Of a DNA stretch of 64,000 nucleotides, positions 15,521-40,075 are shown piece after piece. The position numbers and the translations under genes are program-made. This stretch comes from Aliikangiella coralliicola (GTDB lineage: Bacteria > Pseudomonadota > Gammaproteobacteria > Enterobacterales > Kangiellaceae), in assembly GCF_007004725.1 (NCBI RefSeq), contig NZ_ML660163.1, positions 328,915-392,914 on the forward strand, read 5' to 3'. Positions within the stretch are counted from its first letter, which is position 1. Every line of letters begins with the position of its first letter. A model generated the notes under the pieces. It did not search any database. It saw only the letters and a program-made list of their open reading frames with translations, and was not told the DNA's origin.

Positions 15521-15521
15521 T

Positions 15522-21323: not shown

Positions 21324-21890
21324 TTACGTTACCTTAAATGCACCATTGTTAATGGTGACACCGGCTGGGCCAACTTCAACTTTTCCAGGTGTCGACTCTG
21401 AAACAACACCAACGGCGCCGACGGTATGAGTCGATGGTCCAACACTATCGCTAATATCTAAGCTCCAGGTGGTAGTCGCTCCCTGAGTGTTGGTCAGTTC
21501 AACATCTCCAATCAAATCATCAACTTTAAAATGTGTATTTTCCGTTTTTAAAATTCGTGTATCTGACGTTAGGATTTCGCTGGGTAGCTCGCCATCAGCC
21601 CAGAAGCAACCAGTCCAGATTGGATAGGAAGGATCGCCTCCTTCAAACTCTATCCAGACACCTGCACCAGTCGGCGGTAAAAAATAAAATCCAACATCTG
21701 AACCGGCATAAGGAACACAAGGCATCGCCCAAATTGCTTGGTCACCTAACACTGCGGGAACTTCAACTTTTAGTCGACCTTTTTGTCCCAGGATATCCAG
21801 GTTATCGACAACCGTACCGCGATACTTGCCGAAAAAATGCGTGCGTATCCAGGTTTCAACATCTTCGATGCGATTAAAATTCATTGGCAT
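21324..21890 (-). CDS. gp5/gpV-like spike protein
   Basis: The 188-residue protein is a baseplate-assembly V / VgrG gp5-like spike. It has the OB-fold segment (GKYRGTVVDN, GRLKVEVPAVLG, WAMPCVPYAG, PTGAGVWIEFEGGDPSYPIW at about 22-95) and then a short beta-helical needle (about 105-188) with Gly/Thr/Val-rich strands. In Afp8/Pvc8 this domain is fused to a gp27-like domain; here the two are separate genes, with the gp27-like gene just upstream. The ATG is preceded by GAAGAG. Confidence 0.9.
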   Translation of the reverse strand: MPMNFNRIEDVETWIRTHFFGKYRGTVVDNLDILGQKGRLKVEVPAVLGDQAIWAMPCVPYAGSDVGFYFLPPTGAGVWIEFEGGDPSYPIWTGCFWADGELPSEILTSDTRILKTENTHFKVDDLIGDVELTNTQGATTTWSLDISDSVGPSTHTVGAVGVVSESTPGKVEVGPAGVTINNGAFKVT

Positions 21891-21929: not shown

Positions 21930-22988
21930 TTACCCATTCCATCCGTTTCGAATTAAATCGACGGTCATCATGTGATCTTCTTCGTTAATGTCATGGACCA
22001 CACGAGACACTAAATATTTTCCTGAATGGCGCGTACCAGCGCCGTCTAAATTGACCAATGTGTGCGCGCGTATAATGCCGTTCAGCCTCGATTGGCGAAC
22101 ATTAATTTGCGCGCGAACAAACCAGCCATTTTCCATCAATGCAGCATTCCCCCGCGATGACAGGTCGCCAGCATCATCGGCCGGAACAGCCAGGTGCATT
22201 TGGCGAGTACTGGGAGCAATGTCAGCAAGGTGTTGGTCGGCAAGGCCGGTAATACTTGATCGTTCACTACTGCCATCAATCGCACTTAAGTTACCGAGGT
22301 CTAATTGAGTCAAACTAGCCGAGACAGGCGCTTCACTATTCCAGTGCAAGGTCATCGAATCAATATTTGGTTCACTGATATTGATTCGGAGTTCTTGCTC
22401 CGGGCTTCCGTCCGTAGGCGGTAATTTAAAATGCCCAATGGTCACACCCGGCGCTTCTTCTGTTAACCAAAACCAAAAACCATTTCGCCTTGCAAGTCTG
22501 CGAATAAAACGTAAGTCGGTTTCACGCTGCACTAGTGGATGTTTCAAATCGGTGTGAAAAGTAGTTGTCACCGATACATCAGGAACAATGGCATAACCGG
22601 CCAGAATTTCCATTACTGCAGTCGAGTCGTTGATGTTAGATCGCACCACCGATTTGTTTTCTCGATCCATCGCTACGCTGGCATCCATTCCATGGACATC
22701 AACCTTCGAACCTTCGCCGCCGTGAGCAAAACTAATATCCTGACGCACAACCGGTCCACTCACTAATATGCTGGGAATTGGTTCGCCACGAATAACAACT
22801 GCCAAAATACTTTCCGGATCGAGCAATGAATTATTTAATATCGCTAAGTCACCATCTTCTATGTTAAGGCCAAACCTCAGGCGATATTGGGTTGCCTGAT
22901 TAACGGCTTCCACCACCTGGATTTCACTTGGCATCGGCATAGAAGGATCTGGCAATCCATTGGGTAATATGGCGGCACCGATCGTCAT
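21930..22988 (-). CDS. gp27/gpD-like hub protein
   Basis: The start at 22988 is chosen because GGAG lies about 10 nt upstream; a start 45 bp further up has no ribosome site. The 352-residue product is of the phage late-control D/gp27 type, forming the tube-like hub on which the spike sits. Characteristic features are GPVVRQDISFAHGGEGSKV, the VQRETDLRFIRRLARRNGFWFW segment (core DLRFIRRLARR) and a C-terminal DG..RHSGKYLVSRVVH region. It is encoded immediately before the gp5-like spike. Confidence 0.9.
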   Translation of the reverse strand: MTIGAAILPNGLPDPSMPMPSEIQVVEAVNQATQYRLRFGLNIEDGDLAILNNSLLDPESILAVVIRGEPIPSILVSGPVVRQDISFAHGGEGSKVDVHGMDASVAMDRENKSVVRSNINDSTAVMEILAGYAIVPDVSVTTTFHTDLKHPLVQRETDLRFIRRLARRNGFWFWLTEEAPGVTIGHFKLPPTDGSPEQELRINISEPNIDSMTLHWNSEAPVSASLTQLDLGNLSAIDGSSERSSITGLADQHLADIAPSTRQMHLAVPADDAGDLSSRGNAALMENGWFVRAQINVRQSRLNGIIRAHTLVNLDGAGTRHSGKYLVSRVVHDINEEDHMMTVDLIRNGWNG

Positions 22989-23093
22989 TAGTTTAAAAAC
23001 TCCGTGTATAATTTTTTTGATCTCATCGTACATTGCTCAAAATTCATAAAGTCTTCGCTAAAATATCTCACTAGATTTCGTTCCTTTATGCCT

Positions 23094-23399: not shown

Positions 23400-24191
23400 T
23401 TAAATGGGTAACATACCAATAATAGATTCAACACTATTCGCCAGATTTGCAGTTGCTAAAACTTCTTTTTGTCCGCGAGTAAACTTATAACAAGCGGTGG
23501 CTATTTCAACAGCAGCGCCGCTCGCGGGATCACCGCTCACTTTCACCAGATCATCTAAATCAAGAACGCGTAGTCCAATAGTTGCTTTTGCCCGCGTAGG
23601 ATAAAGAATCGGTGAGTATTGCTGCTCTTCAATTGACAGACTAGTCACTCGAACCGGCACAATTCTTCCCGGCCCCCAGAAAAACAAAACAATAGGAACC
23701 TGTTTTCTTTCTAACGACTCGGCCACGCCATCCAGCGAACCACCAATGCTGACACCGCCGCCGGAAATAGAAACCGAACCACTGACTGAGCCAAGTAATC
23801 CGCCAAGCAAACTATCTCCCGGCGGATACATCAGCATTTCGATAGCCGCAATGCGGTCGGCGACACCGCTAATAAAAGCAACTGGATGAGTTTCTGGTTT
23901 TTCTAGTGCATCGGTTGCATCGAGCATCAACTCTAGAGAAAAAGTTTCTTCGGGATCATACGGCTGCGATAACGCTAGTTTTTGTTCGTTGGTTAGTGCT
24001 GCTCTTTGAATACGCCCTTCATCATTGACCGACACTTCACGAGTGGGTGGTTGCCAGGGTTTCAAAGTACGTGACATGGTTTCAGGGTTGTACTGAAAAA
24101 TAATAATATTCGGAATAGGGATCAGCATGGGCGCGCCGAAATAAATCAATGCGCCTTTCAAAATTGTTGGTGATCTCGAATAACCTGTCAT
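23400..24191 (-). CDS. CIS tube-baseplate adaptor (Afp7/Pvc7-like)
   Basis: The 263-residue protein matches the contractile-injection-system tube-adaptor family: early FQYNPETMSRTLKPW, then EEQQYSPILYPTRAKATIGLRV near the C-terminus (core YPTRAKATIGL). These proteins sit between the inner tube and the baseplate hub. A Gly/Ser-rich loop occupies about 130-155. No C-terminal LysM is fused; the separate 93-residue gene downstream appears to supply it. AGGTGAAGGA lies just before the ATG. Confidence 0.88.
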   Translation of the reverse strand: MTGYSRSPTILKGALIYFGAPMLIPIPNIIIFQYNPETMSRTLKPWQPPTREVSVNDEGRIQRAALTNEQKLALSQPYDPEETFSLELMLDATDALEKPETHPVAFISGVADRIAAIEMLMYPPGDSLLGGLLGSVSGSVSISGGGVSIGGSLDGVAESLERKQVPIVLFFWGPGRIVPVRVTSLSIEEQQYSPILYPTRAKATIGLRVLDLDDLVKVSGDPASGAAVEIATACYKFTRGQKEVLATANLANSVESIIGMLPI

Positions 24192-24291: not shown

Positions 24292-27200
24292 TTAACTTCC
24301 CACCCAACCATACTTGCTCATTCCTTTATAACCTTTGCGTCCTTGATTATTGTGGCTCACAGCTTTAGCCCATATATCTTCCATATCTTTTGTCTTCATT
24401 GGTTTTTCAGTAGAGCTTGGATTCTTTGTAGCAAACAAATCGTTATAGTAATTTTTTTCGTTAGTGACCAAGCCTTTCTTCAATTGTCCCTGCATATAAT
24501 TTCGCATATATTTATAGGTTCCTTGCATCGCTCTATAAATCTGACCTTTCACTGTGCTCTCTTTATTTTTAATCAGCTTTTTCCAATCAGAATAAGGCGC
24601 ATTACCTGCTGCAACTTCCTGTTCCTTTTTTTTCAATGTCCCTGGCAAAAGGTTCGTGTATACATGATTGAGCGCCGCTCCCTGGGTTGAAATATTAGTA
24701 CCTTCAAAATCATCAGCCTTGGGATTAATATGGAGATTACCCCGTCTGTGCGTAGGACGGGCTAATAAAATAGTTGGCATCTTTTTTCCACGCCCATCTT
24801 CTAACTCAGAAATTTCAACTGTCTTGCTTCCCAAAAATTTTGTAGGCCGATTGTTCGCATCGACTTCTAATCCCGGATAGGCATCAGGATGCTTTTCCGC
24901 CAAGGGAAAACCTTTAATATTCTGATCTGCCGGCGGAGGACTCCCCGATGAGCCATTATGAAAATATTGCACCAGTAAATACTGAGTAATATGATGTGAC
25001 TCTCTTTCTCTGCCTTTTTGCTGCTTTGTTTTCTGCTCATAAGTGCCCAGGTGTAGTCGAATATTTCCAATTCCACCAGGCGTAACATCTTCGGTATCGG
25101 TATTTAGATAATCATTCTTGGGAGGCAAAGACGAAGCGTCTAGCCCCGGAGCTGACTTTAATTCTCCGAGTTTTTCTGCCGCAGTGTAAACATTATTTTT
25201 CAGTTGATAGTTATCGTCCCAAACTGAAACACTAGTTCCCAGATCTCTTAATACCGCACGAAGGTTTCTGCGCCATCGCCCTCTGACTTCATCAGTTTCA
25301 GAAGGAAATTTTTTCTTGAGCAAGTCCTTCCATAGTTTGTTGTTCCCATGAATTGCCGGTAAAAATACAAATCGGATCCTGGCCCATTTATAAGGTTTTC
25401 GAGTATCTTTAAAACGCTTCTTACTACCGCGGCCTGTAACGCTAGCGCCCAGATCCAGAAGAATACCGGTTTTACCTAAAATATATCTCTCCAGACGACG
25501 CGTGAAGTCTCCGACATCAAGTCCCATCGTTGGTGGCTTTCCATTTCGTGCTGGCCGAGCAATAAAACTGGCACGTATAGCGATATCTTCAATGGCATTA
25601 TCAATCGTTGCTTGACTTGCCTGAAGTTGTTTTTTAATTTGCGCATACTGCGTGTGAAACTTTTTTGTCATTGACTTTTTAATGGTTAATCCACCATTTT
25701 TCGATGGGCTTGCAAAAATGGCTTTTAGCCTTGCCCCCACACCGGCAACAGCATGACGCACATCTCGGCCAATCAGCCTGCCGTCATTTGTTGTACCGCT
25801 TGAGTCAATGTCAGCCACTTCGTCTTCAATTGAGCCGATGTCAGTTAACTGACGCAAAAAACGGATCCCGAATAACTCAATCATGCTCGGTTGTACTCCA
25901 ACACTATTTGGAGACAAAGTCACAGGTCTGGCATCACCTTTCATCGCTGCGGCTGCAACGGCATCTGCTTCCGCTTCTGCTTTTGGATCAAATTTGATCC
26001 CTTTTCGCGATGTGCCTAACTTCGGCATGCGCGTATTTTTTTTGCCCAAAGGGCGTGCCCCTGTTTGCTGAACCACATGGGCCAATTCGTGATACAAAAC
26101 ACGTTTGGTTTCGCTGTCACCATTTAAACGATCTGACATAAAAATATGACTGCCGCTGGTCAGAGCATTTGCCTGAATTGCTTTCATCATGTCAGTGAAA
26201 GCGGTAGAGTGATGAATTCTGACATCACTAAAATCTTGGCCAAACCGAGCTTCAATATCTTTTTTGAATTGATCAGATAAAGGTTCACCACCAAGGCCGG
26301 GTAAACGATTTAATAGTTGACCAGTCTGAGATTGATCCAACGATGATAAACCGGACTGTTTTAATCCTGTCTTAACGTCGCTTTCCAATGAGGGTTGAGA
26401 CATTGGACCTTCATTGGGATCTGCCGACGGAAACTCATTACCACGCAATCGAATTTTAGCTTCGGGCTCCGCTAAATCGAGATCAATATTGAAAAAACCA
26501 AAAAGTTCTTCAAGAACATCAGCAACCGTTTTTTGCCCCTTATTAATTTCAGTTTCAATTTTTGGTACAATTTTTTTACGCCACACAGGTAAAATCGTAT
26601 CAGTGATAGTGCTACCGCCAGTTGCTTTTGCAAATGCACTTTTAATTAAGTTAGAAATCCCGCCAACTATTTTGTCTGTCGCGCCAACAGCATCCAGTAA
26701 TGCTAATAAGATTCTGATTCCTAACTTATACTTCCCTCCTAATCGATGGCCCACGATATCGATCAGCGCGTGAATAATTTCTTCTAATGGTAAAATATCA
26801 GCCGGCAATTCTAAGCTGCCCATTTTGCCAATCATTTTATCCATTTTTTCTTTGATATCTTTTTCTGAAAAACTATTTTTTGCGCTGAGAAAATCCGTGT
26901 AACCCGAAATTTGGTTAAGCCTGGACAAGACACCAAGAACTTCATGGTAATGATCGGCGATAAACGCAATAATAAAGCTAGCGTGCGGCGAGTTTTGTAC
27001 TAAATGCTCAACGCCTTGACGCCTGTCCTGCACATTATCTTGAACCCGGGCAAAAATTCGGGTGACTCCTGCAACAATTCTTTGTAGCTTGCGAGCCAAA
27101 CGACGCCATCGACGACTGGAAGTCCCACCTCCACGTAGCGGTTTCGGCTTATTCTCCGAAATTTTCAGGCCAATGTTATTGTCGTTGCTGAAGATCAGGT

Positions 27201-30200
27201 ATTGAACAAGATTATCTACCGACAGCCGTGCTTCTAACTGCAGTTGAACTTTTTTCAATAATTCATGGGGATTTTTAACCAGGTCATCCATCATTTTGGG
27301 TAAATCAGATTTCATTAACTGGGTTGCTGCGCCAATCAAACGAGTCGCTGCTACCGCTTGCCCTGCAACAGGGAAAAATTCTGCGAGATCAAGCACCAGT
27401 TTACCGGCAAACTCTATCGCCTCAGCCAGGTCCTGAAGTTGTGCCACCGTCGCCTGCATATGCGCGGCCCAGGTGAGATCCGTTAAGATCCACTCGTGCT
27501 TATCAGCGTAAACAGGCAGTGGATTGACGCTGTCATCGCGACGAATGTACATCAACAGGGTATTAGGTCTGGTAGCGCCTTTTGAATACTCCTTGCCATC
27601 AATAAATAAAATCGACCCCGCGACTGAACCACTATTACTCAGACTACTTTTCAACGGAAATGCAGCCGGGTGAAAGCGAAATTTTTTCTTCACTTCCAGC
27701 ACTTCCCAACTAATGCCGTTAATAGTGAAAGAATAACCCCGCCCCATTTTACGACTCTCTCGACCTTTCGCGTGGATATGTCCGGTATTTTCAACAGTGC
27801 CATCACCTGGAGTCCCAATGATCCCCCACTCCATGATTTTTTCGCGCAAAACCTTGGTCATGTTTTTCAATACATCTTTAAGATGATTAACACGCTCGTT
27901 GTATAAATTACCTTTCCCTTCTTCTTCTCGTACAACATAAGTTTCACGAAACTGAACATCACCTCCTTTTTTGGTGTCCTGTGTCCAGGCGACTGCGACA
28001 TCAATAAGTGGCAGCCAGTCATGAATAACATTCAAGCTGTCCTCCCCACCTAGTTTATCTTTGATGGTTTCAGCCATTTCAAGCACAGCGAGTGCAGTAT
28101 GTCCTTCACGCTCTTCTGCGTTACCAATTCTGAATATCAAAAACGACAACCGAGAAGCTACTTCCTCGGCTAGTAATCGTTTAATAGTCACTCCTTTATC
28201 GCCGGGAATTCGATATTTATCAAATGAGGTATCTTTGTAATTTTCTAATGCTGGACGCAATCTTGTTTCAATGTGACGACGGCGCTCATGGGAAAGCGCT
28301 TTGCGTTCATCAAGCCTGAGCTGCTTAAACGCATCTTCTCTCTCCTGTTTAAGTTTTTTAATCAAATCAGTTGAAGTGATCGCATTTCTTAGCATTTTCA
28401 AAAATTTGGGGTCGCTGATAAAGAACAGGCTGGCCTTTACAAAATCGAGAATTTTCCACCACACCTCTAGTTTCAGTGCTTTTAATTGCTCACGGGTAAT
28501 AGTTTCAACTGTGGCATTTTTTTTAACACTATCTTTTGTTCCGTCCTTAAATCCTGTGCCAGACTTCAATTCATTTTGTATTGGAGGCAAATGCTTTAGA
28601 AGCTCGTTAATATTACTGAATTTCTTTTGATTTTTCGGATCGAGAATTAGCTGTAAACGAGAAATCAATAGATCATTGACGGCATCAATTTGTTGAATTC
28701 GCTCCAGCAAATTGATCGGCGATGGAATTAACCAGAGAACGCAAATAAATTTTTTCCTCTGACGGTCATAGGTTCTATTGGCCATCCAATAGAGCTTTTG
28801 AGGTACTTGTGCATTCCTTTCACTAAATCGTTTTCGGGTTAGTGGATGTTGTCCGATCAATACCCACGAAGGCGTAATATTTTTGTTTTTTATTTGCCCT
28901 TTTTCTATTTTATAAGGGCGCACCCAGTCAAACTCTGTAATGAGGTATCTTTCAGGGCGATAGTCTTTACGCGCTTTTTTGACCGCTTCATTCAGAAGGG
29001 GTTCTCCGATCAAGGGATAGTCTCCCTCTTTATTTTCAAGCTCCTTATTAATGTACCGACTGGTCTGACGGTAATCTTCGGCCATCAAGAAGGTAAATAA
29101 ATCTTGTTTGCCTAAAGGTTCAATACCGCCGATGCTTTCTCCCTTACGATTACTAAAATCGGCTCGAATAACGCCAACCTGCGCTATCTCATCTTTTTTC
29201 CAGTCACTCGCAAAGTAAATGGCTTCGCTGGAAATTTCATGGCCGTGAATAACATTTTCGGCGAGCATCGACCAGTCATTCCATCCAACTGACTGAGAAA
29301 TGTTATTGATCTTTTCCGCAAACCTTAATCGATAGATTTCACGAATATCCGCTGCCGACGCATTAGCGTCAAAACTTTTTTGAGACTTTGATATCTGCTT
29401 ATCTTTGGTAAGATTAAAGTCTTTCGCTTTTTCTAAAAGCTCCTGCGCGATAATAAATCCCCAGGCAACGACTCCCTGCACAGCAGTTGGCAATCTCTTT
29501 TCCGCAATTTTTGTATCAAATGAGAAATTCCGTCGTCCATCTTTGTTGGTCGGCAATGCGTCGAAAAATTTATCTGCCAGGTTTCTCTCAATTTTATTGA
29601 CCCCGGGCAACTTGATCTTATCCTGGGTTTTAATAACGCCCTTGGTAAAATCCTTGATTAGTTTTTTTCTTTTTAAGTCGAAAGCGACTGGTTCAAGTAG
29701 ACCATTATTTCCTTCTCTTTCAAGAATACCAAAAACAAAAGTGTTGATTGCAGCATAAAGCCCAGGCGCATACTTATTTAGAATTTTGATAACCTGTATA
29801 CCATCTAGCGCTAAATCTTTAAAATCGACATGATTAGCAATTTTTCGAACGTCGTACCCCGCTGTCCAGAAGCCATATGCGAATTTCACCATTCGTGCCA
29901 CAGCAGTCAGAAAGTCGTCAATTATCAGTAGCTCTGCTTCGATTGAAATTTCTTTTTTTCCAAACGTATGGGCACGATCTTTTTTAGCGAGAAATGTTGA
30001 GACTCGCGCTCGCTTATCCGCATTGTGTTTGATTAATTTTTTCTCCAAAGTTTTCAATATTGAAGCTTTAAGGTGCGCTCGATTTTTAAAATTAAACTCA
30101 GGTGCGAAGCGTGTTTCATTGTAGGCTTCTCGAAGCAGGTCATACCGGTATTCTTCGATTTCTGAGGCAATTAACACGGTCATAAAATAAAGTTCATTTT

Positions 30201-31335
30201 CTTTGGCATTAAAATCATGCCGCCGTTTTAATTCTTTTTCTGCTGTATCTTCAGTAAGCTTTTGCGTCGAATCAATGATTTGCCTCGAAAGTTTGGCTGC
30301 TGGATTCATTAAAAAAGCAAAGGTACGATCCAACATGAACCTGGGCGTAGCACGGCCAAACCATGCACTGGTGTACCAGAGTTTATAAAAGTGATCTTTA
30401 ATCGGTTGTAACTTAGTAATATTAAGTTCAATGAGGTGGTTGTAAGTTTCGGCGGAGAAATAAGTCGTTTTTACGTCAGGAAACTGGTTCAGAATTTTGG
30501 CCGCGGTCGAAAAATGATCTGCACGTTTCAGACCATCATACAACGCAGATAAAACTTCAATATCAGTGATATCTGAAAACTTCAAAGCAAAAACGGGGTC
30601 ATTGGTGTTATCAACCACATGATTTGCGCGCGCGTTCCAGAACTCTGGTATCTTCTTGTCTCTGATGGCCTGGCGGTGATTAATAAGTAGCCGATTTATT
30701 AACGTTTTGATTTTTCCGGCTGGAGCATTGTCATCATGGTACTTAAGAACCGCTTCAATATCAGGTAGATTTGGCGTTGTTTCTAATGGTATCGACCAGC
30801 ATTGTGGTATGCCGCTACCTTGAATGTCTGTCACTCGCTGGCGATAGTTTGAAACCTGAGTCACTCTTCCTGTTTGTTGAATACTGTGAGCAATCTCGTG
30901 AGCCAGCAACCGCTGTCCAGCAATTCCTGTTGGGTCAAACTGATGAGACCCAAAATAAATATGCGAACCGCTGGCAAAGGCACGAGCATTCATATTGTCT
31001 ACTACATTGTTGGCGACAAAGTCACGATGAACTCGAATTGCGGACAAGTCAGTGGCAAACGCACTTTCAAGATCATTTTGTAGTGTGGATGGTAAAAATT
31101 CTGCTCTACTAGCTGACACGGTCAAGGCTGATGGTTCAACTGGTGAGAGATGACTGGAAATATTCTGTTCACCGCGAACAAAGGCATTGGCAGAACGATC
31201 AGCTTGTTGTTCAAATTTATCAGCACGATTTCGATTGCCCATGATTAGACGACGCGTTTTATGTTGACGTGCGAAAACCTTCCGCACGTTATTACCGCGT
31301 GAAGCTTGTTTATTTTGGCAAACATTTTTATTCAT
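24292..31335 (-). CDS. Giant eCIS-core protein A: two DUF4157 domains and ESHH C-terminal domain
   Basis: The 2347-residue protein has a basic N-terminus and a first DUF4157 (eCIS core) domain at about 85-160 with HEIAH (146-150) inside LLAHEIAHSIQQTGR. A second DUF4157 domain lies about 1,600 residues later with HELAH (1749-1753) inside LYHELAHVVQQTG. The helical, Lys/Glu-rich region between them is unrecognised. The C-terminal domain (about 2060-2347) has RESHHITQYLL (His2114, His2115) and a later HRRGNLHI. DUF4157 is a metalloprotease-like family tightly linked to eCIS loci. The order of motifs and shared mid-region landmarks show it is a full-length paralogue of the adjacent gene. Roles as particle-loaded toxin, or tape measure/scaffold, are both open. 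Confidence 0.85.
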   Translation of the reverse strand: MNKNVCQNKQASRGNNVRKVFARQHKTRRLIMGNRNRADKFEQQADRSANAFVRGEQNISSHLSPVEPSALTVSASRAEFLPSTLQNDLESAFATDLSAIRVHRDFVANNVVDNMNARAFASGSHIYFGSHQFDPTGIAGQRLLAHEIAHSIQQTGRVTQVSNYRQRVTDIQGSGIPQCWSIPLETTPNLPDIEAVLKYHDDNAPAGKIKTLINRLLINHRQAIRDKKIPEFWNARANHVVDNTNDPVFALKFSDITDIEVLSALYDGLKRADHFSTAAKILNQFPDVKTTYFSAETYNHLIELNITKLQPIKDHFYKLWYTSAWFGRATPRFMLDRTFAFLMNPAAKLSRQIIDSTQKLTEDTAEKELKRRHDFNAKENELYFMTVLIASEIEEYRYDLLREAYNETRFAPEFNFKNRAHLKASILKTLEKKLIKHNADKRARVSTFLAKKDRAHTFGKKEISIEAELLIIDDFLTAVARMVKFAYGFWTAGYDVRKIANHVDFKDLALDGIQVIKILNKYAPGLYAAINTFVFGILEREGNNGLLEPVAFDLKRKKLIKDFTKGVIKTQDKIKLPGVNKIERNLADKFFDALPTNKDGRRNFSFDTKIAEKRLPTAVQGVVAWGFIIAQELLEKAKDFNLTKDKQISKSQKSFDANASAADIREIYRLRFAEKINNISQSVGWNDWSMLAENVIHGHEISSEAIYFASDWKKDEIAQVGVIRADFSNRKGESIGGIEPLGKQDLFTFLMAEDYRQTSRYINKELENKEGDYPLIGEPLLNEAVKKARKDYRPERYLITEFDWVRPYKIEKGQIKNKNITPSWVLIGQHPLTRKRFSERNAQVPQKLYWMANRTYDRQRKKFICVLWLIPSPINLLERIQQIDAVNDLLISRLQLILDPKNQKKFSNINELLKHLPPIQNELKSGTGFKDGTKDSVKKNATVETITREQLKALKLEVWWKILDFVKASLFFISDPKFLKMLRNAITSTDLIKKLKQEREDAFKQLRLDERKALSHERRRHIETRLRPALENYKDTSFDKYRIPGDKGVTIKRLLAEEVASRLSFLIFRIGNAEEREGHTALAVLEMAETIKDKLGGEDSLNVIHDWLPLIDVAVAWTQDTKKGGDVQFRETYVVREEEGKGNLYNERVNHLKDVLKNMTKVLREKIMEWGIIGTPGDGTVENTGHIHAKGRESRKMGRGYSFTINGISWEVLEVKKKFRFHPAAFPLKSSLSNSGSVAGSILFIDGKEYSKGATRPNTLLMYIRRDDSVNPLPVYADKHEWILTDLTWAAHMQATVAQLQDLAEAIEFAGKLVLDLAEFFPVAGQAVAATRLIGAATQLMKSDLPKMMDDLVKNPHELLKKVQLQLEARLSVDNLVQYLIFSNDNNIGLKISENKPKPLRGGGTSSRRWRRLARKLQRIVAGVTRIFARVQDNVQDRRQGVEHLVQNSPHASFIIAFIADHYHEVLGVLSRLNQISGYTDFLSAKNSFSEKDIKEKMDKMIGKMGSLELPADILPLEEIIHALIDIVGHRLGGKYKLGIRILLALLDAVGATDKIVGGISNLIKSAFAKATGGSTITDTILPVWRKKIVPKIETEINKGQKTVADVLEELFGFFNIDLDLAEPEAKIRLRGNEFPSADPNEGPMSQPSLESDVKTGLKQSGLSSLDQSQTGQLLNRLPGLGGEPLSDQFKKDIEARFGQDFSDVRIHHSTAFTDMMKAIQANALTSGSHIFMSDRLNGDSETKRVLYHELAHVVQQTGARPLGKKNTRMPKLGTSRKGIKFDPKAEAEADAVAAAAMKGDARPVTLSPNSVGVQPSMIELFGIRFLRQLTDIGSIEDEVADIDSSGTTNDGRLIGRDVRHAVAGVGARLKAIFASPSKNGGLTIKKSMTKKFHTQYAQIKKQLQASQATIDNAIEDIAIRASFIARPARNGKPPTMGLDVGDFTRRLERYILGKTGILLDLGASVTGRGSKKRFKDTRKPYKWARIRFVFLPAIHGNNKLWKDLLKKKFPSETDEVRGRWRRNLRAVLRDLGTSVSVWDDNYQLKNNVYTAAEKLGELKSAPGLDASSLPPKNDYLNTDTEDVTPGGIGNIRLHLGTYEQKTKQQKGRERESHHITQYLLVQYFHNGSSGSPPPADQNIKGFPLAEKHPDAYPGLEVDANNRPTKFLGSKTVEISELEDGRGKKMPTILLARPTHRRGNLHINPKADDFEGTNISTQGAALNHVYTNLLPGTLKKKEQEVAAGNAPYSDWKKLIKNKESTVKGQIYRAMQGTYKYMRNYMQGQLKKGLVTNEKNYYNDLFATKNPSSTEKPMKTKDMEDIWAKAVSHNNQGRKGYKGMSKYGWVGS

Positions 31336-31421
31336 AATTGATGATTCAAATTTTTACTCTCAATATTTAAAACTCCTGATTTTTAATTTCTAATTCATCG
31401 TTAATCAATCACAACTTTCCG

Positions 31422-34400
31422 CTAAGGTGTGGGCCAGCCTTTTCTACTCATCACTTGATCATTATTTCTTTTAGCAGCTCGAAAAACCTGGTTCAGATCA
31501 GTCTCTCGTAAATTGTAAGCAGCCTCTAAACCGGGATCATCTGAATCTGGATTTAGCGAATGATTGATTGCGGCTATACTTCGATAATAAGCTAACTCTT
31601 CTGTTTTCAGTCCATTGCGCAATGCCGGAATCATTCTGTTATACATCCAGTGATAAGTGGCTACAGTCGCATCATAAAAAGCCCGATTTGCGCCTGCCAT
31701 ATTGGTATTAAGCTGATGTTCAAATCTTTGTCGGTGTGCTTCCGAACCATCTCGGGTGCGCAAGGCAACAGGAAGGTTTCGGTTGAAAGTATTCTGAATT
31801 GCCAAACCTTGCGACGACGAGTTATCAGTATCAAATCCCATGGTCGCATTATCATTCCAGACAGATTCACTGAGCACATGCAATTTACCGCGTTGATGAG
31901 TTCGAGCTGACAATAAAACTGCCGGCATTTCATCGCCACGCCCCGATGTAGGGTCGAGTGCAGTAATTTTAATTTCGCTTCTACCTGGCGCATCAATCGA
32001 ATTGACCACACCACCAGTCTGAGTAGTGTTGGCAAACTTAACCGCTGTTGGATAACGCGAATGATGTGCGGGAAAAGCTTTTCGAGTTCCGTGCTTATTG
32101 CTAAAAAATTCTGCGAGCAAATATTGAGTAGTATGGTGAGATTCCCGGTTAAAGGTACCAATCGAACGACCACGGGTTAAACGTCCGTGAGTAGAAACCG
32201 CTAAACTATCTCCGCGGTTGTTGGTAGTATCTTTGTAATTTGCAACAGTTGGTACATCCGTTAAGTTACCGCGTAATGCTTGCTCGCGAATTTCAACAAA
32301 TTCTGTGACAAAATGATTAGAAAATTTAAATTCGTTACTATCCCAGATCCTCGCCTGAGGCCCCATAGCTCTGAGCCTTTGCCGAACGCCATTTTGTAAC
32401 CGGGCATCAATTGGTATTCTTCTGCCGGTAAATCCCGCAGTCACTGCAATTTTCCATAAACGGCTTCGGCCACCAATACGCTCCAACGCGACGTTAATCA
32501 CTTTAACATTTTGGATTGTTCTCGGCTCAGTACGCGACACTGAAATTTGTAAGCCAATACCTTTTTCAGCAAATATAAAATTTTCTAATAGATTAACAAA
32601 CCGACTAACCTTTAACTCGCTTTGTGGCTGGTTGCGATCAGTTTGACGTATTGGTTTCTGTGCTAAAGTTGCGATTCCAGTAATAGCCTGATCACCAAAG
32701 CTTCTGCTGCGGGTTAAATGGGTCTTAATTTTATCTCTTACATTTGCCGGTGTTATTCCCGGAATCGGCACATTGGGATCTTGCGTAAATCGAGCAAAGT
32801 CATCATTACTACCAGTGTTTAAATTGCCTAATTTGGTCCACACTTCGCCCCACAAGCGACGCGCAATTTCGATGCCAGGAACCGGTCCTGTTGAGTCTGC
32901 TGTAAAGTCTTGTTCGGCATCAGCGTCATAACCCACTTCCGTCAGGGTTTCGATAATGCTGCTCATGGTTCTGTCGGTGATACTCGGCTGCACGCCATCA
33001 TCAGAATAATTTGTGTAACCCATGTTCAGGTGACCCGATGAAAAAGACTGTGACACTCGGTCAGCCTGTTGCTCACGTTGATGGTCAAAACGTAATGTTC
33101 CCGAGCGCCCCCATTTAGGCTGGGGCGCTGTTCCACTTAACGGATGTGAACCAGTTTGTTGCACTACATGAGTTAACTCATGGGCTAAAGTCGGTTGCAC
33201 ACCAGGAGAATTCAGACTGAGCTTAGGATTAAGAAAGATATGGCTTCCACTGGTGACTGCGTTGGCACCGATAGGTGTAGTAGCAGGTACAGCTGCATTA
33301 CCATGATGTAATCTGACATGAGAAAAATTCTGGCCAAACTTCTGTTCATATGGCTGACGTAAACTCGACGAAAATGGTATTCCTGATTGACGTGGCAAAT
33401 GCCAGCCACAACTCGACAAATTAACGCTCTGATTAGAAATTCCGGGTTGAAGTGAAGCCTCGGTTTCGAGTGTTTCGGGTATTACTTCCGTGGAAGGCAA
33501 GCTATCAGTTTCGGGACGCTCAAGCGGTGCCTGGCCCAAAGTACTCAAAAAACGATTAATCGTTCGATATAAATCATTAACGAATTGATCTCGCAATTCT
33601 ACAAATTCATTACCGATTAACGGTAACACATCTTCTCGCCAATAACGGTTGGGATCTAAAGCAGTATCACGCCAGATATCTCCAATCTGCTCCGCCATGT
33701 AGGTATACAAAGATTTAAAGCCGGTAAAACGACCTTGCCGATCCTGTGGCACAGGAATCAATTCTAATGCCCTTCTGACAATTCTCGCTTTAGCACCGAA
33801 TCGATCGGCTACCAGCATCACAATGAGTTCAGTCGCTAAAGTCAAATCGATTAACTCTCCGGGCAATTCAATGGCTTCGATCGCTGTTAAAATTTCCAAT
33901 GTATTACGGCGTAAATCAGTCGTGATATCTTCAATGCTTTCGCCAACCGCATCTCGAATAGCGTCAGGTGTAACCGGAACATCCCCCCGCGCAATTGCTT
34001 CACCAACCTCTGGTGGAATAAGATCATTTAATGCTCTTAGCACAGTTATTGCTCTTCGCATTACCCAGGAAAGTGTTGGGCGCATAGCCAGATTACCCTG
34101 TACTGACCGAATCGGGCCACGAGCGCGGGAGCGCAGTCGATTGATCGCATTATGAAAACGCGTTCCCAAGAGTCGCAAAGAGCGAACGACTCTACCGATT
34201 CGTGTTCTTGGTGGTGGTGCAGGTCTGGCGTTTCGAGTGCTTCTTAAGTTCAACAGCCCACTGAGAGGATTCCGATGCTGTCCCGCCAACAATAAAAATT
34301 TCCAGATATTTTCTGGCGTCAGCAGTTCATTTTGAATTCTCTCTACCAACTGCTCGGCCACACTCCAGGGGTCATCCTGAAGTTGTCGAACCATTTCTTC

Positions 34401-37400
34401 CAGGTCACCGCTGGAAACAAATTGAAGCGTTTGCGCAATGACCTGTGGAATGACCAAACCGGTTGCCATAGCGACAGCGTCCATTAGTAATTCCATTGAC
34501 GCTTGCGTAACCGCCGCCAGATTTTCCATATGGATCTGAAAACCACGCCACAAAAACATATCGTTGTAACGGGTCATCAGAGCAGGGTCATCATCGGCGA
34601 AAACAACTCGCGCCGTAGTTCCTTCACCAATTTGAATGGAAAACAACTGGTCGTGTGGAATCGGCCTTCCGGTCATTCCGCCAAAAGTTTCTCCTTCACT
34701 ATTTTTATACAGAGGTGGAATGTAAGGCCCATACCCCTGGCTGCCAACTGCCGGCCTGTATTCAAAATGCCTGGCAACATTCGTTACTCTGACAACATTA
34801 CCGCTTCCTTCCTGAATGTGTCCGGTATTGTCAGCGGTCATACCAATATGCCATTGGTGCATTGGGTCAGGATTCGTTTCACTAGTGGGATAAATCGGAC
34901 CCGAACGAAAAGCCATTGAACGAATGACAGTGGTGCCATCGTGATCGGCTCCCTCAAAACCAATTTGACTTTGTGCTTCAGCAAAGTTTTCTGTAATGGT
35001 TCGCTGAGCGTTTCTCAGGTGTGCACGAGCACGAAGAAGGTTTCTGTTGATGTAGGCGATTCTGCCACCAAGCTCATCATACACATTGGTAATGCGACGC
35101 AATTTCTGAAGGTTCTCAGCATTACCCGGAGTACTAAATTGCAACGTCTCTTCAAACAACTGATAGTAATCACGAGCCACTGCGTTTTCTTGATCTCGGC
35201 GAGAAAAAAGACGGTCGAATTCTGCAGCCATTGTCAACACCAGCAAAGCAATCTGGGCATCAGCTTCATCACGCGGTCTGGCGTTGGACCGAAACCGCGA
35301 GATATCCCTTATCGTGGTTATTGGTGCTTGAATTCTGGCACCGGCTTCTTCATCAGTCTCATCTTCTAATCTGGCGGTCACTCTTCTTTCGGTTAAATAA
35401 CCTGCAAAACGCCGCTTGAGTTGCATTGTTAAAATTCGGCGTTGCAAAGTGGTAAACCGACGCCACAAATCAGGCATCTCACGATTAATGGGTCGGATAA
35501 GCCCGAGTAGCGCCGAGTTGATCCTTTCGTTAACAAAATCCCATTCGGAATAGTCGATATTGTCGCGGTGTATTGCGTTTAGAAAAGTTCCCAGATTCGC
35601 CGCCTGAGATCCAGCAACCTGGCGCAACGAAGGTAAATCACGAGCCAGATTAACCAGCCCCTGCAATGAGGGTAAAATCCATAAAAATACTCGCTGCTCT
35701 ACCCGACGCGGTACTATCGCAAAGTGAAACGCACCGCTATTTTTATGACGAACGATTGACGCTTGCGTTTTCGGATGCTGATAAATCATATCATCCCAAC
35801 GCGCGTCACTATTTGGTGGAATTAGCGCGTCCCAATCAGTCACTTTAAATCGTTGCGGCATGTTCAACTGAAAAATACTTGCCGCATCACCCCGAGCCCG
35901 CGCTTCAAATTCCGCCTCTGCATTTGCCAGGAAATTGGCCTGTACTGCCGATGGGTCCTGGCGCAAATTATTGATCGCGGCGAAATCAATTTCAGTGTTC
36001 GCCGAAGCCGTTGACTCACTCGCCAGATAACCTAACAACGCGCTTCGCAAACGGCGTTTTAAACTTAACCGAAACCAACGAATAATATGTAGTAAAGTAA
36101 AAGGAACCTCACTAATAAAAGGTTCATTCAATAAGCTTGGAAAATCTTGTCGTAACTTCCTTAAAGACGTGTCTGTATCAACTCGCCATTCATCACGGAT
36201 CCAAAGTTGCGGTAAGTGTAAACCCGTTCCAGCTGACAACGCTTCTTTAGTTGCGTCAACAATATCCTGCCATCCCATCCAGCGGGCAAACCATAAAAAA
36301 GTTCTCGCCAGTTGCAGTCGGTGGAAACCTAACTCATCAACAAAATTAGGCGTGGCCTCATCACCTTGCTGGTTGTAACGCTGCGATTGCCACACCAGCA
36401 TATCGGTAAACCATGACATCAAAGCCAGACCACGAACGAGTTCTTCGTTTCGTCTTCTCTGTAATGCACGGCGTCTTAAAGAACGATCAATTTGCTCAAA
36501 TAGCGATGGTAAAGTTCGATTACCTGAGCGAGTAGATTGTTCCATCGCGTTGATAAATGCGGTGAGTCTTTGCTGATAATCTTCCGGCGACGGCAATCCT
36601 TCACCGAGTGCAGCACCTTGCGCGCTAGCATCATCGGGCCCCGCTCGAACGCTGCCGACGCTTTCTGCGAAAATTGCCTGAGCATGTTCCAACACCACAG
36701 CATGCAATTGATTGACAAAAGGTTCTCGGTGGCCTCTTGCAGGAAACCTCGGCAATTGAACGCTAGTTCGCTCATCTTCACCAACAAACGTTCTTCTGGT
36801 CGATGGATCGAGCAGTTGAGCAATAGTGAAGGCGCCGAATTCGGCCCTGACGTGTGCAATATCTTCCTGTAATCTTTGCCATAATGGATCGATATCACGT
36901 TCGATCATCTGCAATAAACTCTCGGCAAGGTTTTTTCGCCACGCCGGCTCAGTGTCAGAATCGAGAATCTCTCTTTCTCGATTTTTTACATTGGTAATTC
37001 CATTTATTAACCTCTCGGTCGGCGTAAAGTCGGAGTAAACTCGATTGACTTCGCCACGGATCGCCTGACAATCCAGTAGGCGCTGACGATCGATTTCAAC
37101 TAAAGCATCCCATGCGATGACCACGCGTTCCTGTGGTAACACAGTCATATTCTGGTTTTGCGTCGTTCTTTGCGTAACAGCCTCATTGCGTGCAGTTTGA
37201 ATTCGGCTATTTGCAGCCGGCGGTGGGGCATGGGGTGTTAAGAAAAAAGAACGATAATCAGAAATAATGGTGTGAGGCCAATAGCGTTGAAAATCTCGAA
37301 ACCATAAAGCACCGGCAGCCCAATTGAATACATCATTCTGGCTGCGCAAAAAACCAATAAAAGCAGACGAATGAACAATCACTGTCGCCTCAAGTCGCCC

Positions 37401-38180
37401 ATCCCAATCAATTAAATATTTCGCCGCGGGGAAAAATCCTAAAATTTTCAAACAATCAATGACAAAACCTTTTGACTGACCCGAACGGTTGTTAAATTGA
37501 GTGGCAAGAACCGCGTTCACCAGCGGCATCGCAAACCTGGGCCGAGTTGGGTTGGCAACAAGTCCATGTTCAACCAAATCACCGACTTCAATCATGGTAT
37601 TTTCCAAGTCACCCGCTTGTTCACCTCGTTGGTAGGCATCAATCAAGGCGTTAAATATCGATTCATCGGGTTCGTCATCAGATAACTCTGGTTCTCCCTG
37701 ATGTTGAACCGGACCACTCCCCGTCGCGCCAGGAATAATTTCCAAATTATCCTCAGCAACTTTTCGACCTGTTTGTTGCAAAACATGAGTCACTTCATGA
37801 GCGATCAATTCGCGACCGCTCATCGTATCCGGCTGATACTGATTGGCACCGAAATAAATATGCACTCCACTAGCAAAAGCTCGCGAGTTTTCCATTTGGA
37901 CTGCTCGTTGAGCACGACTGTCATGGTGGACTCTTATTGGCGTTAAATCAGCTCCAAAAGCAATCCCTAACTCTTCCTTTAATGCCGTTGGCAATTGCTC
38001 GGAAGCCGATCCAGGCAAATGAAAGTTCGCTGCCCGGGCAGGATTAACAAAACGGGATAATCGAATATCACCTTGAACAAAACGAGAGGCGGCTTTGTTA
38101 GCGTTTTTTTCGGCTAAACGATTCACTTCATTTCGATGTCGATAACGCCTTCTGGCTCGCATGGCTCGGTTAACTTTCAT
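31422..38180 (-). CDS. Giant eCIS-core protein B: two DUF4157 domains and ESHH C-terminal domain
   Basis: The 2252-residue protein has an Arg-rich N-terminus (RARRRYRHR). Its first DUF4157 domain is at about 65-140 with HEVTH (128-132) in LIAHEVTHVLQQTGRK; its second has HELTH (1667-1671) in LAHELTHVVQQTG. The C-terminal domain carries RESHHTTQYLL (His2015, His2016) and HQRGKLHV. The intervening region is largely helical and Arg/Gln-rich, in contrast to the Lys/Glu-rich middle of protein A, but shared landmarks (such as NTGHI, W/F..HM...A..Q, and a proline-started YW/VWR helix before the second domain) indicate collinearity. Its ATG overlaps the stop of the AAA+ gene (ATGA, 38177-38180), so it is translationally coupled to assembly genes. 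Confidence 0.85.
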   Translation of the reverse strand: MKVNRAMRARRRYRHRNEVNRLAEKNANKAASRFVQGDIRLSRFVNPARAANFHLPGSASEQLPTALKEELGIAFGADLTPIRVHHDSRAQRAVQMENSRAFASGVHIYFGANQYQPDTMSGRELIAHEVTHVLQQTGRKVAEDNLEIIPGATGSGPVQHQGEPELSDDEPDESIFNALIDAYQRGEQAGDLENTMIEVGDLVEHGLVANPTRPRFAMPLVNAVLATQFNNRSGQSKGFVIDCLKILGFFPAAKYLIDWDGRLEATVIVHSSAFIGFLRSQNDVFNWAAGALWFRDFQRYWPHTIISDYRSFFLTPHAPPPAANSRIQTARNEAVTQRTTQNQNMTVLPQERVVIAWDALVEIDRQRLLDCQAIRGEVNRVYSDFTPTERLINGITNVKNREREILDSDTEPAWRKNLAESLLQMIERDIDPLWQRLQEDIAHVRAEFGAFTIAQLLDPSTRRTFVGEDERTSVQLPRFPARGHREPFVNQLHAVVLEHAQAIFAESVGSVRAGPDDASAQGAALGEGLPSPEDYQQRLTAFINAMEQSTRSGNRTLPSLFEQIDRSLRRRALQRRRNEELVRGLALMSWFTDMLVWQSQRYNQQGDEATPNFVDELGFHRLQLARTFLWFARWMGWQDIVDATKEALSAGTGLHLPQLWIRDEWRVDTDTSLRKLRQDFPSLLNEPFISEVPFTLLHIIRWFRLSLKRRLRSALLGYLASESTASANTEIDFAAINNLRQDPSAVQANFLANAEAEFEARARGDAASIFQLNMPQRFKVTDWDALIPPNSDARWDDMIYQHPKTQASIVRHKNSGAFHFAIVPRRVEQRVFLWILPSLQGLVNLARDLPSLRQVAGSQAANLGTFLNAIHRDNIDYSEWDFVNERINSALLGLIRPINREMPDLWRRFTTLQRRILTMQLKRRFAGYLTERRVTARLEDETDEEAGARIQAPITTIRDISRFRSNARPRDEADAQIALLVLTMAAEFDRLFSRRDQENAVARDYYQLFEETLQFSTPGNAENLQKLRRITNVYDELGGRIAYINRNLLRARAHLRNAQRTITENFAEAQSQIGFEGADHDGTTVIRSMAFRSGPIYPTSETNPDPMHQWHIGMTADNTGHIQEGSGNVVRVTNVARHFEYRPAVGSQGYGPYIPPLYKNSEGETFGGMTGRPIPHDQLFSIQIGEGTTARVVFADDDPALMTRYNDMFLWRGFQIHMENLAAVTQASMELLMDAVAMATGLVIPQVIAQTLQFVSSGDLEEMVRQLQDDPWSVAEQLVERIQNELLTPENIWKFLLLAGQHRNPLSGLLNLRSTRNARPAPPPRTRIGRVVRSLRLLGTRFHNAINRLRSRARGPIRSVQGNLAMRPTLSWVMRRAITVLRALNDLIPPEVGEAIARGDVPVTPDAIRDAVGESIEDITTDLRRNTLEILTAIEAIELPGELIDLTLATELIVMLVADRFGAKARIVRRALELIPVPQDRQGRFTGFKSLYTYMAEQIGDIWRDTALDPNRYWREDVLPLIGNEFVELRDQFVNDLYRTINRFLSTLGQAPLERPETDSLPSTEVIPETLETEASLQPGISNQSVNLSSCGWHLPRQSGIPFSSSLRQPYEQKFGQNFSHVRLHHGNAAVPATTPIGANAVTSGSHIFLNPKLSLNSPGVQPTLAHELTHVVQQTGSHPLSGTAPQPKWGRSGTLRFDHQREQQADRVSQSFSSGHLNMGYTNYSDDGVQPSITDRTMSSIIETLTEVGYDADAEQDFTADSTGPVPGIEIARRLWGEVWTKLGNLNTGSNDDFARFTQDPNVPIPGITPANVRDKIKTHLTRSRSFGDQAITGIATLAQKPIRQTDRNQPQSELKVSRFVNLLENFIFAEKGIGLQISVSRTEPRTIQNVKVINVALERIGGRSRLWKIAVTAGFTGRRIPIDARLQNGVRQRLRAMGPQARIWDSNEFKFSNHFVTEFVEIREQALRGNLTDVPTVANYKDTTNNRGDSLAVSTHGRLTRGRSIGTFNRESHHTTQYLLAEFFSNKHGTRKAFPAHHSRYPTAVKFANTTQTGGVVNSIDAPGRSEIKITALDPTSGRGDEMPAVLLSARTHQRGKLHVLSESVWNDNATMGFDTDNSSSQGLAIQNTFNRNLPVALRTRDGSEAHRQRFEHQLNTNMAGANRAFYDATVATYHWMYNRMIPALRNGLKTEELAYYRSIAAINHSLNPDSDDPGLEAAYNLRETDLNQVFRAAKRNNDQVMSRKGWPTP

Positions 38181-40075
38181 TGTCGCGAACCCGTTAAAAT
38201 CTGATCTAGTTCACGTTCCGATAATCCCCGACCATCTTTGGATAATTCTCGACACAACATTTCGCCCAGCAACTGGATCGACAGCGGTATCTTATGGCGT
38301 TTTATGGAAAAAATACTGGAAAGTACTGCGCTTTTTATTTGCGCGCCGGTAGCTTCAATTTTTGCCAGATTAACAATATCGCCGGCTAGGCTTTTCACGG
38401 TCGGCTCATCAAATAATGCGCCAATGACGCTTAGCCAGATTCTCTCGCGCGCCTGTACCGTCGGTTTAGAAAACTCTACCGTGTGGCGAATGCGGCGAAT
38501 AAACGCAGCGTCGATATTAGCTTTTAAATTAGTCGCCATTAACACGATACCGTCAAAATTTTCCAGCGCGACCATCAAGTGTCCGCTGTCCATGTTGACG
38601 TAGCGATCATTGGCATCCTTTATATCGTTAACCCGTTTCCCATAAATTGAATCTGCTTCATCAAAAAATAAAACCGATTGCTGACTGATTTTCGCAGAAA
38701 GAATTTTTTGTAAATTCTGCGTGGTTTCTCCCACCCACTTGCTAACAACTGCGGAAAGGTCAATACGTAATAAATCAAGCCCTAGCTCATTAGCAATCAC
38801 TTGCGCGGCCATCGTTTTGCCCGAGCCGGGCGGTCCAGAAAATAAGGCGACTAATCCTCTCCCATGAGGAAATAGCCGACGAGCTTCAGGATCAGACCAA
38901 ATTCGATTTCGCTCACGCGCTTCGAACACAACTTCTTGTAACCTGTCTTCCAAATCCTTCGGCACCACCAAATCTTGCCAGTTAAACTGGCTGTTCACCG
39001 GCTGTGCCAAACCATCTAAATCATTGTGCCTGGTGCTCCGAATATACTCTGTCACCTGTTTTAGCTGTTTGGGTTGCTTAGCACCGATGCGAATAATTTC
39101 AGTGGCATTGTGATGTGATCGCCAAATCAAATCATCAACATGTTTTTTCGGCCATTTGGTAATGTTCGGTAGTGCATATTGCCAAATCACTTTTCGGTCC
39201 TGATTGGTCAGTTCAGGAATTTCAATCACGACATCTTTAATATCCTGTTTCAGGTTCCAGGCCTGTGGCGTTCCAACCACAAACTGTAATGGGAAAACAG
39301 CGATACCATTAGGTTGACTTAATGCCTGCTGATTTTGAAAAAACATTGGCGCACAGCGGTCAAGAAATGACTGCCTTTGAACTCTCATTGAAAAACGATA
39401 ACTCAGTTCTGGTGATAAATTGTCAATATCGTATTTAGCAACAACAATACCCAACTGTTGTGCTAGTTCTGTCGCAAAAGCCTGCGCCAGTAATTCATCA
39501 TCAGTATCGAGATAAATTCGACAAGATTGATTTTTTTTAAGGTGGGCAGAAATCTTTTTTTTGTAACGGTTGAGCGACCAACTTTTTAATTGAAAACTCG
39601 GTGTGAGTAAATTGACGCGACTAACCAACCAATGATCAAGATCGTTATTCCCTTCTAACCAGGAAACGATATGTGGATCAATTGCCAGGGTAACCGATCC
39701 ATCCACTAATTCCTGTTCACGTATCATTTCCCAAATAACAAGCGGCGACTCGGTGCTCAACCTGTACACGGGATCCAATTGGAAAACACGCGCAACCAAT
39801 AATGGCGAAAGTACCGGAACAACGGGGTCAAAAGTCATTAAATGGTTTCGCAGTTCTGGTGAATAAGCACACACCCATAAAGTTGCGACCAGTTTTTTTT
39901 CAAACTCATTAAGGCCAAACATATGTGATAACAATGTTAGACGCGACGCTTTAGGCTCATTAGCTAGCGGTGTTTTTCGATCACTAAGGACATTAGCGAG
40001 CAGCTGTGACCAATAATCACGTTCACCACCGGACAGCGACTCTTTCTGGTTAATTGACTCAGCAGCGATGCTCAT
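38177..40075 (-). CDS. AAA+ ATPase of the eCIS (Afp15/Pvc15-like)
   Basis: The 632-residue protein has a C-terminal AAA+ module (about 375-560) with Walker A GPPGSGKT (414-421), Walker B VLFFDEAD (about 468-475) and an arginine-finger-type RRIRHTVEF segment. The N-terminal ~370 residues are unrecognised and helical. A class-defining AAA+ ATPase of this type is present in Afp, PVC and related eCIS and is needed for particle assembly or cargo loading. It is coupled on both sides by ATGA overlaps: 40072-40075 with the DUF4255 gene and 38177-38180 with giant gene B. Confidence 0.93.
   Translation of the reverse strand: MSIAAESINQKESLSGGERDYWSQLLANVLSDRKTPLANEPKASRLTLLSHMFGLNEFEKKLVATLWVCAYSPELRNHLMTFDPVVPVLSPLLVARVFQLDPVYRLSTESPLVIWEMIREQELVDGSVTLAIDPHIVSWLEGNNDLDHWLVSRVNLLTPSFQLKSWSLNRYKKKISAHLKKNQSCRIYLDTDDELLAQAFATELAQQLGIVVAKYDIDNLSPELSYRFSMRVQRQSFLDRCAPMFFQNQQALSQPNGIAVFPLQFVVGTPQAWNLKQDIKDVVIEIPELTNQDRKVIWQYALPNITKWPKKHVDDLIWRSHHNATEIIRIGAKQPKQLKQVTEYIRSTRHNDLDGLAQPVNSQFNWQDLVVPKDLEDRLQEVVFEARERNRIWSDPEARRLFPHGRGLVALFSGPPGSGKTMAAQVIANELGLDLLRIDLSAVVSKWVGETTQNLQKILSAKISQQSVLFFDEADSIYGKRVNDIKDANDRYVNMDSGHLMVALENFDGIVLMATNLKANIDAAFIRRIRHTVEFSKPTVQARERIWLSVIGALFDEPTVKSLAGDIVNLAKIEATGAQIKSAVLSSIFSIKRHKIPLSIQLLGEMLCRELSKDGRGLSERELDQILTGSRQ

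Follow-up and report, generated by a model that had tools for sequence, protein, structure and literature searches.

The question raised by this locus is what two adjacent giant genes do within the operon of an extracellular contractile injection system (eCIS). The window, by which we mean the whole stretch of 64,000 nucleotides analysed here (Aliikangiella coralliicola, contig NZ_ML660163.1, positions 328,915 to 392,914), encodes two very long proteins, giant A and giant B, each with two DUF4157 domains (eCIS_core, PF13699) and a C-terminal Ntox14 domain. We concluded that this double-core architecture is real and conserved, and apparently rare. We consider it fairly probable that they serve as effector cargos, loaded either alternatively or together, of an eCIS in which no tape-measure gene was recognised, and that they work like Tme, the tapemeasure-related effector of a contractile injection system (CIS) of Streptomyces davawensis, described as a giant that carries DUF4157 and ends in a nuclease (PMC11126660).

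Anatomy of the giants

The two open reading frames (ORFs) and their core domains lie as follows; the core positions come from the PF13699 genome search (for core 1 of giant A, contig positions 366681-366911 minus the offset 328914).

24292..31335, minus strand: giant B, 2347 amino acids (aa); core 1 at residues 81-156, middle region, core 2 with HExxH at 1749-1753, Ntox14 at 2026-2205
31422..38180, minus strand: giant A, 2252 aa; core 1 spanning residues 62-138, a middle region that is largely helical, core 2 from about 1600 to 1677, and Ntox14 at 1932-2102
37767..37997, minus strand: eCIS_core 1 of giant A
33150..33374, minus strand: eCIS_core 2 of giant A
30868..31095, minus strand: eCIS_core 1 of giant B
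26056..26283, minus strand: eCIS_core 2 of giant B

Both ORFs were borne out at the lengths and positions given by an earlier note, which had been made from the letters of the window. That note had also named profile searches as the place where its second DUF4157 assignment could fail. In the whole-genome search PF13699 matched giant A twice (E 2.1e-24 and 5.3e-22) and giant B twice (E 8.3e-24 and 1.1e-21), always above the cut-off, which identifies the second HExxH segments as genuine eCIS_core domains. Of the six such domains in the genome, four lie in the giants; these four are free of inner stops and keep HExxH intact, in giant A at residues 128 and 1667 and in giant B at 146 and 1749, just as the note had placed them. 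It was also right that giant A is coupled to the gene of the AAA+ ATPase (38177-40075), with which it overlaps by 4 bases. Giants A and B are 86 bases apart, and 100 bases separate giant B from the CIS_tube-like gene.

The third codon positions (GC3 of 39.0 and 37.4) gave no clear foreign signature. The middle regions were said to differ in composition, Arg/Gln-rich against Lys/Glu-rich. The contrast of arginine with lysine held (R/K 10.2/1.2% in giant A, 6.1/9.4% in giant B), as did that in glutamine (5.5% vs 3.3%), but glutamate makes up 6.7% of each, so that "Lys/Glu-rich" was half right. In the AlphaFold2 model of giant A, core 1 and its upstream helix were confident (residues 21-150, block pLDDT, the predicted local distance difference test, of 78-92), the helix joining the core-1 domain; residues 170-1072 were modelled as 70% helix at low confidence. 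The four giants compared with NCBIfam had no match there.

Occurrence of double-core giants

Among 398 genomes of the phylum, PF13699 was found in 35, and two copies in one frame occurred only in the present genome, at most 13 candidates having been scored in most genomes; the earlier note's view that the architecture is unusual was thus upheld. A search of relatives gave two cores in one frame in three of 41 genomes (G000, which is the present genome, G009 and G022). The note's proposal to look through eCIS loci for double PF13699 hits was followed with a contig scan, in which 105 relatives were found and 79 loci kept, a set selected for relatives of the giants and therefore not a census. Six of the 79 loci (L031 to L036, L031 being the G022 locus) carry a one-frame double-core giant, and a plasmid search added one on the megaplasmid pMTS1 of Cupriavidus sp. 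P-10. Altogether ten other giant loci were recognised (G009, G022, L030, L032, L033, L034, L035, L036, L037 and L109), spread over distant bacteria: Pseudomonadota, Myxococcota, Chloroflexota, Desulfobulbus and the Cupriavidus megaplasmid. The L037 giant is cut by a contig end. The giants of L030 and L035 are broken, in the N-terminal part and near the C-terminal end, respectively, where draft assembly leaves error and decay indistinguishable.

Elsewhere the giants occur one per locus, and only the present window has two. Across nine genomes or records that carry a giant, the table of PF13699 matches showed no second giant of this kind, the genome of L037 lying outside this search and the Myxococcota genome with 43 core hits being judged from the table alone. 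In G009, G022, G433, G434 and the Cupriavidus plasmid record, the two cores of the giant are the sole PF13699 matches. A phage or provirus origin was rejected, as neither giant A nor the CIS_tube-like protein had a match in 50,697 phage records and viral contigs held no relative of the giants.

Other arrangements were also encountered. Three further loci of the 79 have two cores per frame at another spacing (L058, L102 and, with a weaker second core, L060). The Myxococcota genome of L030 (G431), with its 43 eCIS_core matches, has two frames of 883 and 658 aa with two cores close together (contigs C489 and C592). Long single-core frames of 2407-3179 aa occur in L105 (9623-16867, with a RelA_SpoT match near the end), L054, L077 and L088, possibly overlapping other genes.

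Conservation and lineage of the two cores

In an alignment of 11 giants, identity averaged over pairs was 48% for core 1, 44% for core 2, 30% for Ntox14 and 20% for the middle. Length varied little: nine complete giants span 2184-2347 aa (coefficient of variation 2.3%), some start codons being uncertain, that of L109 most of all, and the two HExxH motifs stand 1511 +/- 54 residues apart in ten giants. HExxH is kept in all 11 copies of core 2 and all 12 of core 1, and an E-x-x-A helix lies upstream of core 1 (12/12) and downstream of core 2 (11/11); these counts include a fragment read in a different frame and a truncated protein. The Glu of this conserved helix is a candidate for the third zinc ligand of the eCIS_core domain. 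Within the middle, eight of 11 giants share the hydrophobic peaks that giant A has near residue 1240, and in seven of 11 the most basic 60-residue stretch falls near 1330; giant B has neither.

The 165 cores in the fetched loci, giants included, bear E-x-x-A upstream only in 77 cases, downstream only in 43, on both sides in 13 and on neither in 32, by a loose pattern. Both layouts occur among these cores, so that each giant unites one core of either kind. A tree of 166 cores, built on 78 columns and with L109 left out, placed the ten core-2 rows in one group (SH-aLRT, the Shimodaira-Hasegawa-like approximate likelihood ratio test, 92) and the ten core-1 rows in another, together with the L037 giant and a second L030 entry (SH-aLRT 89). 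These results are suggestive of an origin of core 1 and core 2 from different DUF4157 lineages, which would fit one joining of two modules. An internal duplication of one core was not favoured, because the core-1 and core-2 rows separate in the tree, with modest support. Possible module ends were also seen: a Gly-rich stretch ending in Q after core 1 (12/12 where this part is present) and a G-x-Q-P-like motif after the core-2 helix (8/11).

The C-terminal domain

The shared C-terminal "ESHH" domain of the earlier note was confirmed and corresponds to Pfam Ntox14 (PF15522; cut-off 25 bits), with E 1.1e-16 and 61.3 bits in giant A and E 1.8e-14 and 54.2 bits in giant B. All four giants scanned had the Pfam match, and the motif R-x-SHH...RG...P...H...H was present in 11 of 11 giants whose C-terminal part is present. 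Among the 398 phylum genomes Ntox14 occurred only in the present one, confined to the giants. Ntox14 is one of the predicted RNase toxins listed by Zhang et al. (2012; PMC3482391), who pair it with Imm22, and the domain of the giants is predicted to be a nucleic-acid-cutting toxin. We rejected its assignment to the HNH/AHH nucleases; the SHH looks alike by eye, but profile comparison gave a probability of 0.1-0.2%, equal to that of the controls (0.1-0.2%).

The operon and the giant slot

The operon of the window is an eCIS, although several components were assigned by synteny, with Pfam scores below cut-off. No tape-measure gene was recognised in it. Among published eCIS, those of lineage II often lack pvc14, which is labelled tape measure (PMC11495950). 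Its other genes are the following.

43607..46072, minus strand: tail sheath, 821 aa (Pfam)
43089..43589, minus strand: tail tube, gp19 family (Pfam)
42225..43067, minus strand: T4_baseplate-family protein (Pfam)
41384..42241, minus strand: 285-aa protein, function not assigned (no Pfam match)
40072..41376, minus strand: Pvc16_N protein (Pfam), which we take to be the tail terminator
38177..40075, minus strand: AAA+ ATPase, Pvc15-like to judge from position, a probable cargo loader
23400..24191, minus strand: CIS_tube-like protein, directly downstream of giant B (Pfam below cut-off; synteny)
21930..23033, minus strand: Phage_GPD-like spike hub (Pfam below cut-off)
21324..21890, minus strand: Phage_base_V spike protein (Pfam)
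20831..21175, minus strand: PAAR-like/DUF4280 tip protein (weak match, below cut-off)
20419..20796, minus strand: gp25-like baseplate protein (Pfam)
17855..20416, minus strand: conserved operon protein, 853 aa, baseplate by position (no Pfam match)
15522..17858, minus strand: Baseplate_J-like protein, 778 aa (Pfam below cut-off)
13223..15550, minus strand: conserved operon protein, 775 aa (no Pfam match)
9401..12919, minus strand: DUF6519/beta-helix protein, probably a fibre

The giant likewise lies between the AAA+ and CIS_tube genes in G009, G022, L032, L033, L035 and L109, six of the ten other loci, with a 95-aa ORF ahead of it in G009. At L036 the AAA+ gene precedes it and a GPD hub follows, with no CIS_tube after ORF filtering; at L037 it stands between the AAA+ gene and the contig end; at L034 Pvc16 is the one component seen upstream, with the contig end following shortly downstream; the L030 locus is rearranged. 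The CIS_tube-like protein is 51-83% identical across the giant loci where it was seen. In more distantly related chassis the slot is differently filled: it holds only an 88-aa ORF on a Streptomyces anthocyanicus plasmid, where a 2456-aa protein without a Pfam match stands at the operon end; it is empty in Mycobacterium sp. OTB74; it holds a 478-aa single-core protein and small ORFs on a Nostoc plasmid; and in Tahibacter soli (L056) it holds four core-bearing frames in a row, a 1734-aa ORF there running over two other core-bearing frames. Sheath ORFs measure 802-853 aa in the giant loci where a sheath was seen and 542 and 552 aa in L112 and L118, the two chassis from Actinobacteria whose slot holds no giant.

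Divergence of the giants from their machine

Giants A and B share 22-23% identity, whereas giant B shares 38% with the giant of Andreprevotia lacus, its closest relative, whose four compared chassis proteins average 62% to those of the window. Between the window and G022, seven chassis proteins average 75% identity and the giants 24%; between two Andreprevotia species, Pvc16 and the 853-aa-type baseplate protein average 72% and the giants 25%. These chassis means exclude AAA+, and one to eight proteins were compared per pair. The pattern resembles that of cargo that is swapped or evolves quickly, not that of a structural component co-evolving with the machine. In the AAA+ protein, the first 390 residues are 26-39% identical between window and G022, and the ATPase part 64%. 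That this N-terminal part tracks the giant was not established, as it is 55-64% identical between the two Andreprevotia species while their giants are 25% identical.

In the giant tree, B and the A. lacus protein were sisters at 100/100, and the place of A was unsure owing to long branches. The position of A and B, adjacent on one strand, alike in architecture and 86 bases apart, would suit an ordinary recent tandem duplication of no further meaning. Given the identities above and the sister grouping of B with the A. lacus giant, we rejected this origin as scarcely credible. The term paralogues used earlier stands insofar as A and B are homologues, and fails insofar as B is closer to a protein of another species than to A. 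The wider claim that they are simply specialised tandem paralogues with four protease cores was not supported, since the family is conserved and otherwise single-copy in the loci seen and A and B belong to different sublineages. Further points against this claim are the seemingly different DUF4157 lineages of core 1 and core 2 and the predicted toxin domain at the end of each protein. On these grounds the two proteins are better read as giant effectors.

The giants as effector cargos

From published DUF4157 systems and the domain anatomy, we propose a plausible model in which the giants act as Tme-like effectors in the tube lumen; their role in the particle, protease activity and toxicity are inferred. 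The long, mostly helical middle would lie along the lumen, and core 1 would serve docking or loading, with the spike end and the AAA+ loader as its partners. Firing would expel the giant. Core 2, about 250 residues before the toxin, might either cut the protein to release Ntox14 or be a second dock, and Ntox14 would attack nucleic acid in the target. The giants share with Tme-like effectors a long ORF, an N-terminal DUF4157 domain and a conserved place in a syntenic CIS cluster (PMC11126660); with regard to the nuclease end, they close in Ntox14 rather than EndA, and comparison with the AHH profile gave 0.2%.

Several points weigh against this model. The C-terminal toxin family is identical in 11 of 11 giants, unlike the swapped ends of typical polymorphic toxins, and neither the 86 bases between A and B nor the 100 bases after B leave room for an immunity gene, Imm22 itself not having been searched for. 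Four of four giants matched no tape-measure family in PHROGs at E 0.1 (hmmscan). AlphaFold2 models were weak outside core 1 (mean pLDDT 59.9 and 55.7), a structure search with the C-terminal half gave no match at E < 0.001, which is uninformative for so weak a model, and the giants had no meaningful match to solved structures. Furthermore, the toxicity of the cargo Cgo1 of AlgoCIS is reported to be independent of its HExxH motifs, which speaks against an essential protease role there (PMC8894135).

The Cgo1 result also favours a reading in which both cores are purely structural docks, for the spike end and another partner, and no proteolysis takes place. Another point in favour of this reading is the report on Sle2 of Streptomyces lividans, a stand-alone DUF4157 protein that potentially interacts with SlpT2, the tube initiator, and that bound its cargo Sle1 in the N-terminal region (PMC13277306). 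Against it, HExxH is kept in 165 of 165 cores detected in the fetched loci, suggesting that the motif has a function, although all rows behind the profile carried HExxH and the motif could also be kept for a structural zinc; we regard docks alone as possible but doubtful. Core 2 could instead be a second warhead, a metalloprotease toxin giving each giant two toxins, in keeping with its HExxH and downstream E-x-x-A helix (11/11) and with the toxin versions of the domain that Zhang et al. (2012) proposed at extreme C-termini (PMC3482391). As core 2 is not C-terminal, Ntox14 following it in every giant with a C-terminal end, this is very unlikely.

The remaining alternative concerns the tape measure: the giant might be ruler as well as cargo, its length setting that of the tube, with the toxin on the ruler's end. 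CIS_TMP (PF19268) had no match in nine of nine giant-carrying genomes or records, the single match in the present genome, on contig C5 in another cluster, serving as positive control; the giants sit just before the baseplate genes; and their near-constant length despite a middle of ~20% identity, as well as the 70% helix of residues 170-1072 in the low-confidence model, would suit a ruler. However, the giants change faster than the chassis, the window has two of different length, and neither PHROGs nor CIS_TMP (at E 1) matched them. The reading is weakened by the chassis whose slot is empty or holds an 88-aa ORF, a 478-aa single-core protein or four single-core frames, and by S. lividans particles without Sle1 and Sle2, for which no apparent structural defect is reported (PMC13277306). 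A ruler role is therefore unlikely. Its fuller form, a self-measuring cargo that sets tube length, grips the lumen through two unrelated cores and carries a toxin, so that the window would choose or mix two rulers, seems quite unlikely. The family would nevertheless offer a direct test of length-setting in eCIS without a recognised tape-measure gene. A natural protein with two cores, apparently of two lineages and both with intact motifs, would make docking and toxin release separable core by core, and what DUF4157 does in eCIS is described as an open question (PMC8213781; PMC11297309).

Comparison with known systems

As DUF4157 giant effectors, the giants belong to a known kind, and they are new in having one DUF4157 at the N-terminus and another before the toxin, a combination of which we found no description in the literature searched, subscription papers and supplements being outside the search. 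DUF4157 marks eCIS effectors and is often N-terminal, followed by a long linker and a C-terminal toxin (PMC8213781; PMC11297309). The effectors of Geller et al. (2021) resemble the giants in this order, with linkers sometimes >1000 aa, and differ in their single N-terminal DUF4157 (PMC8213781). By its description, Tme is similarly large (a C-terminal fragment ends at 2247), with an N-terminal DUF4157, coiled-coil, hydrophobic and basic middle stretches and a C-terminal nuclease; it is the largest ORF of its cluster, just before the baseplate genes, and its sheath clade is reported across Actinobacteria, Proteobacteria and Chloroflexota. In contrast to the giants, one DUF4157 is mentioned for Tme in the text available, the nuclease is EndA-like and the gene is single (PMC11126660).

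The PVC-metallopeptidase toxins of Zhang et al. (2012) also have DUF4157 followed by a C-terminal toxin, and autoproteolytic release was proposed for them; Ntox14 is listed with PVC-metallopeptidase, and second copies of the domain are noted, at the extreme C-terminus and thus in toxin position, unlike core 2, which precedes Ntox14 (PMC3482391). AlgoCIS has two DUF4157 cargo genes in one cluster, Cgo1 and Cgo2, both shown to fill the tube lumen, and the C-terminal domain of Cgo1 contains another putative HExxH motif; each cargo differs from the giants in its one central DUF4157, predicted disordered N-terminus and different C-terminal domain (PMC8894135). In S. lividans, a DUF4157 protein is likewise paired with a tape-measure-like cargo, but Sle1 and Sle2 are two separate proteins and the cargo has no DUF4157 (PMC13277306).

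A second cluster and neighbouring genes

The cluster at C5:497000-516500 (L001) holds the 716-aa CIS_TMP protein, an AAA+ protein and two DUF4157 proteins with one core each (540 and 1568 aa); the longer one matches HHH_3 and, slightly under the cut-off, Endonuclea_NS_2. It is probably a second eCIS of different design, although the stretch retrieved showed no sheath or tube genes. Within the window, an AbiGi antitoxin-family protein (PF10899, E 1.6e-47; 46962-47633, minus strand) lies upstream of the sheath gene, and a HopA1-family protein (PF17914, E 1.7e-11; 6086-7108, minus strand), possibly another effector, is encoded slightly downstream of the operon.

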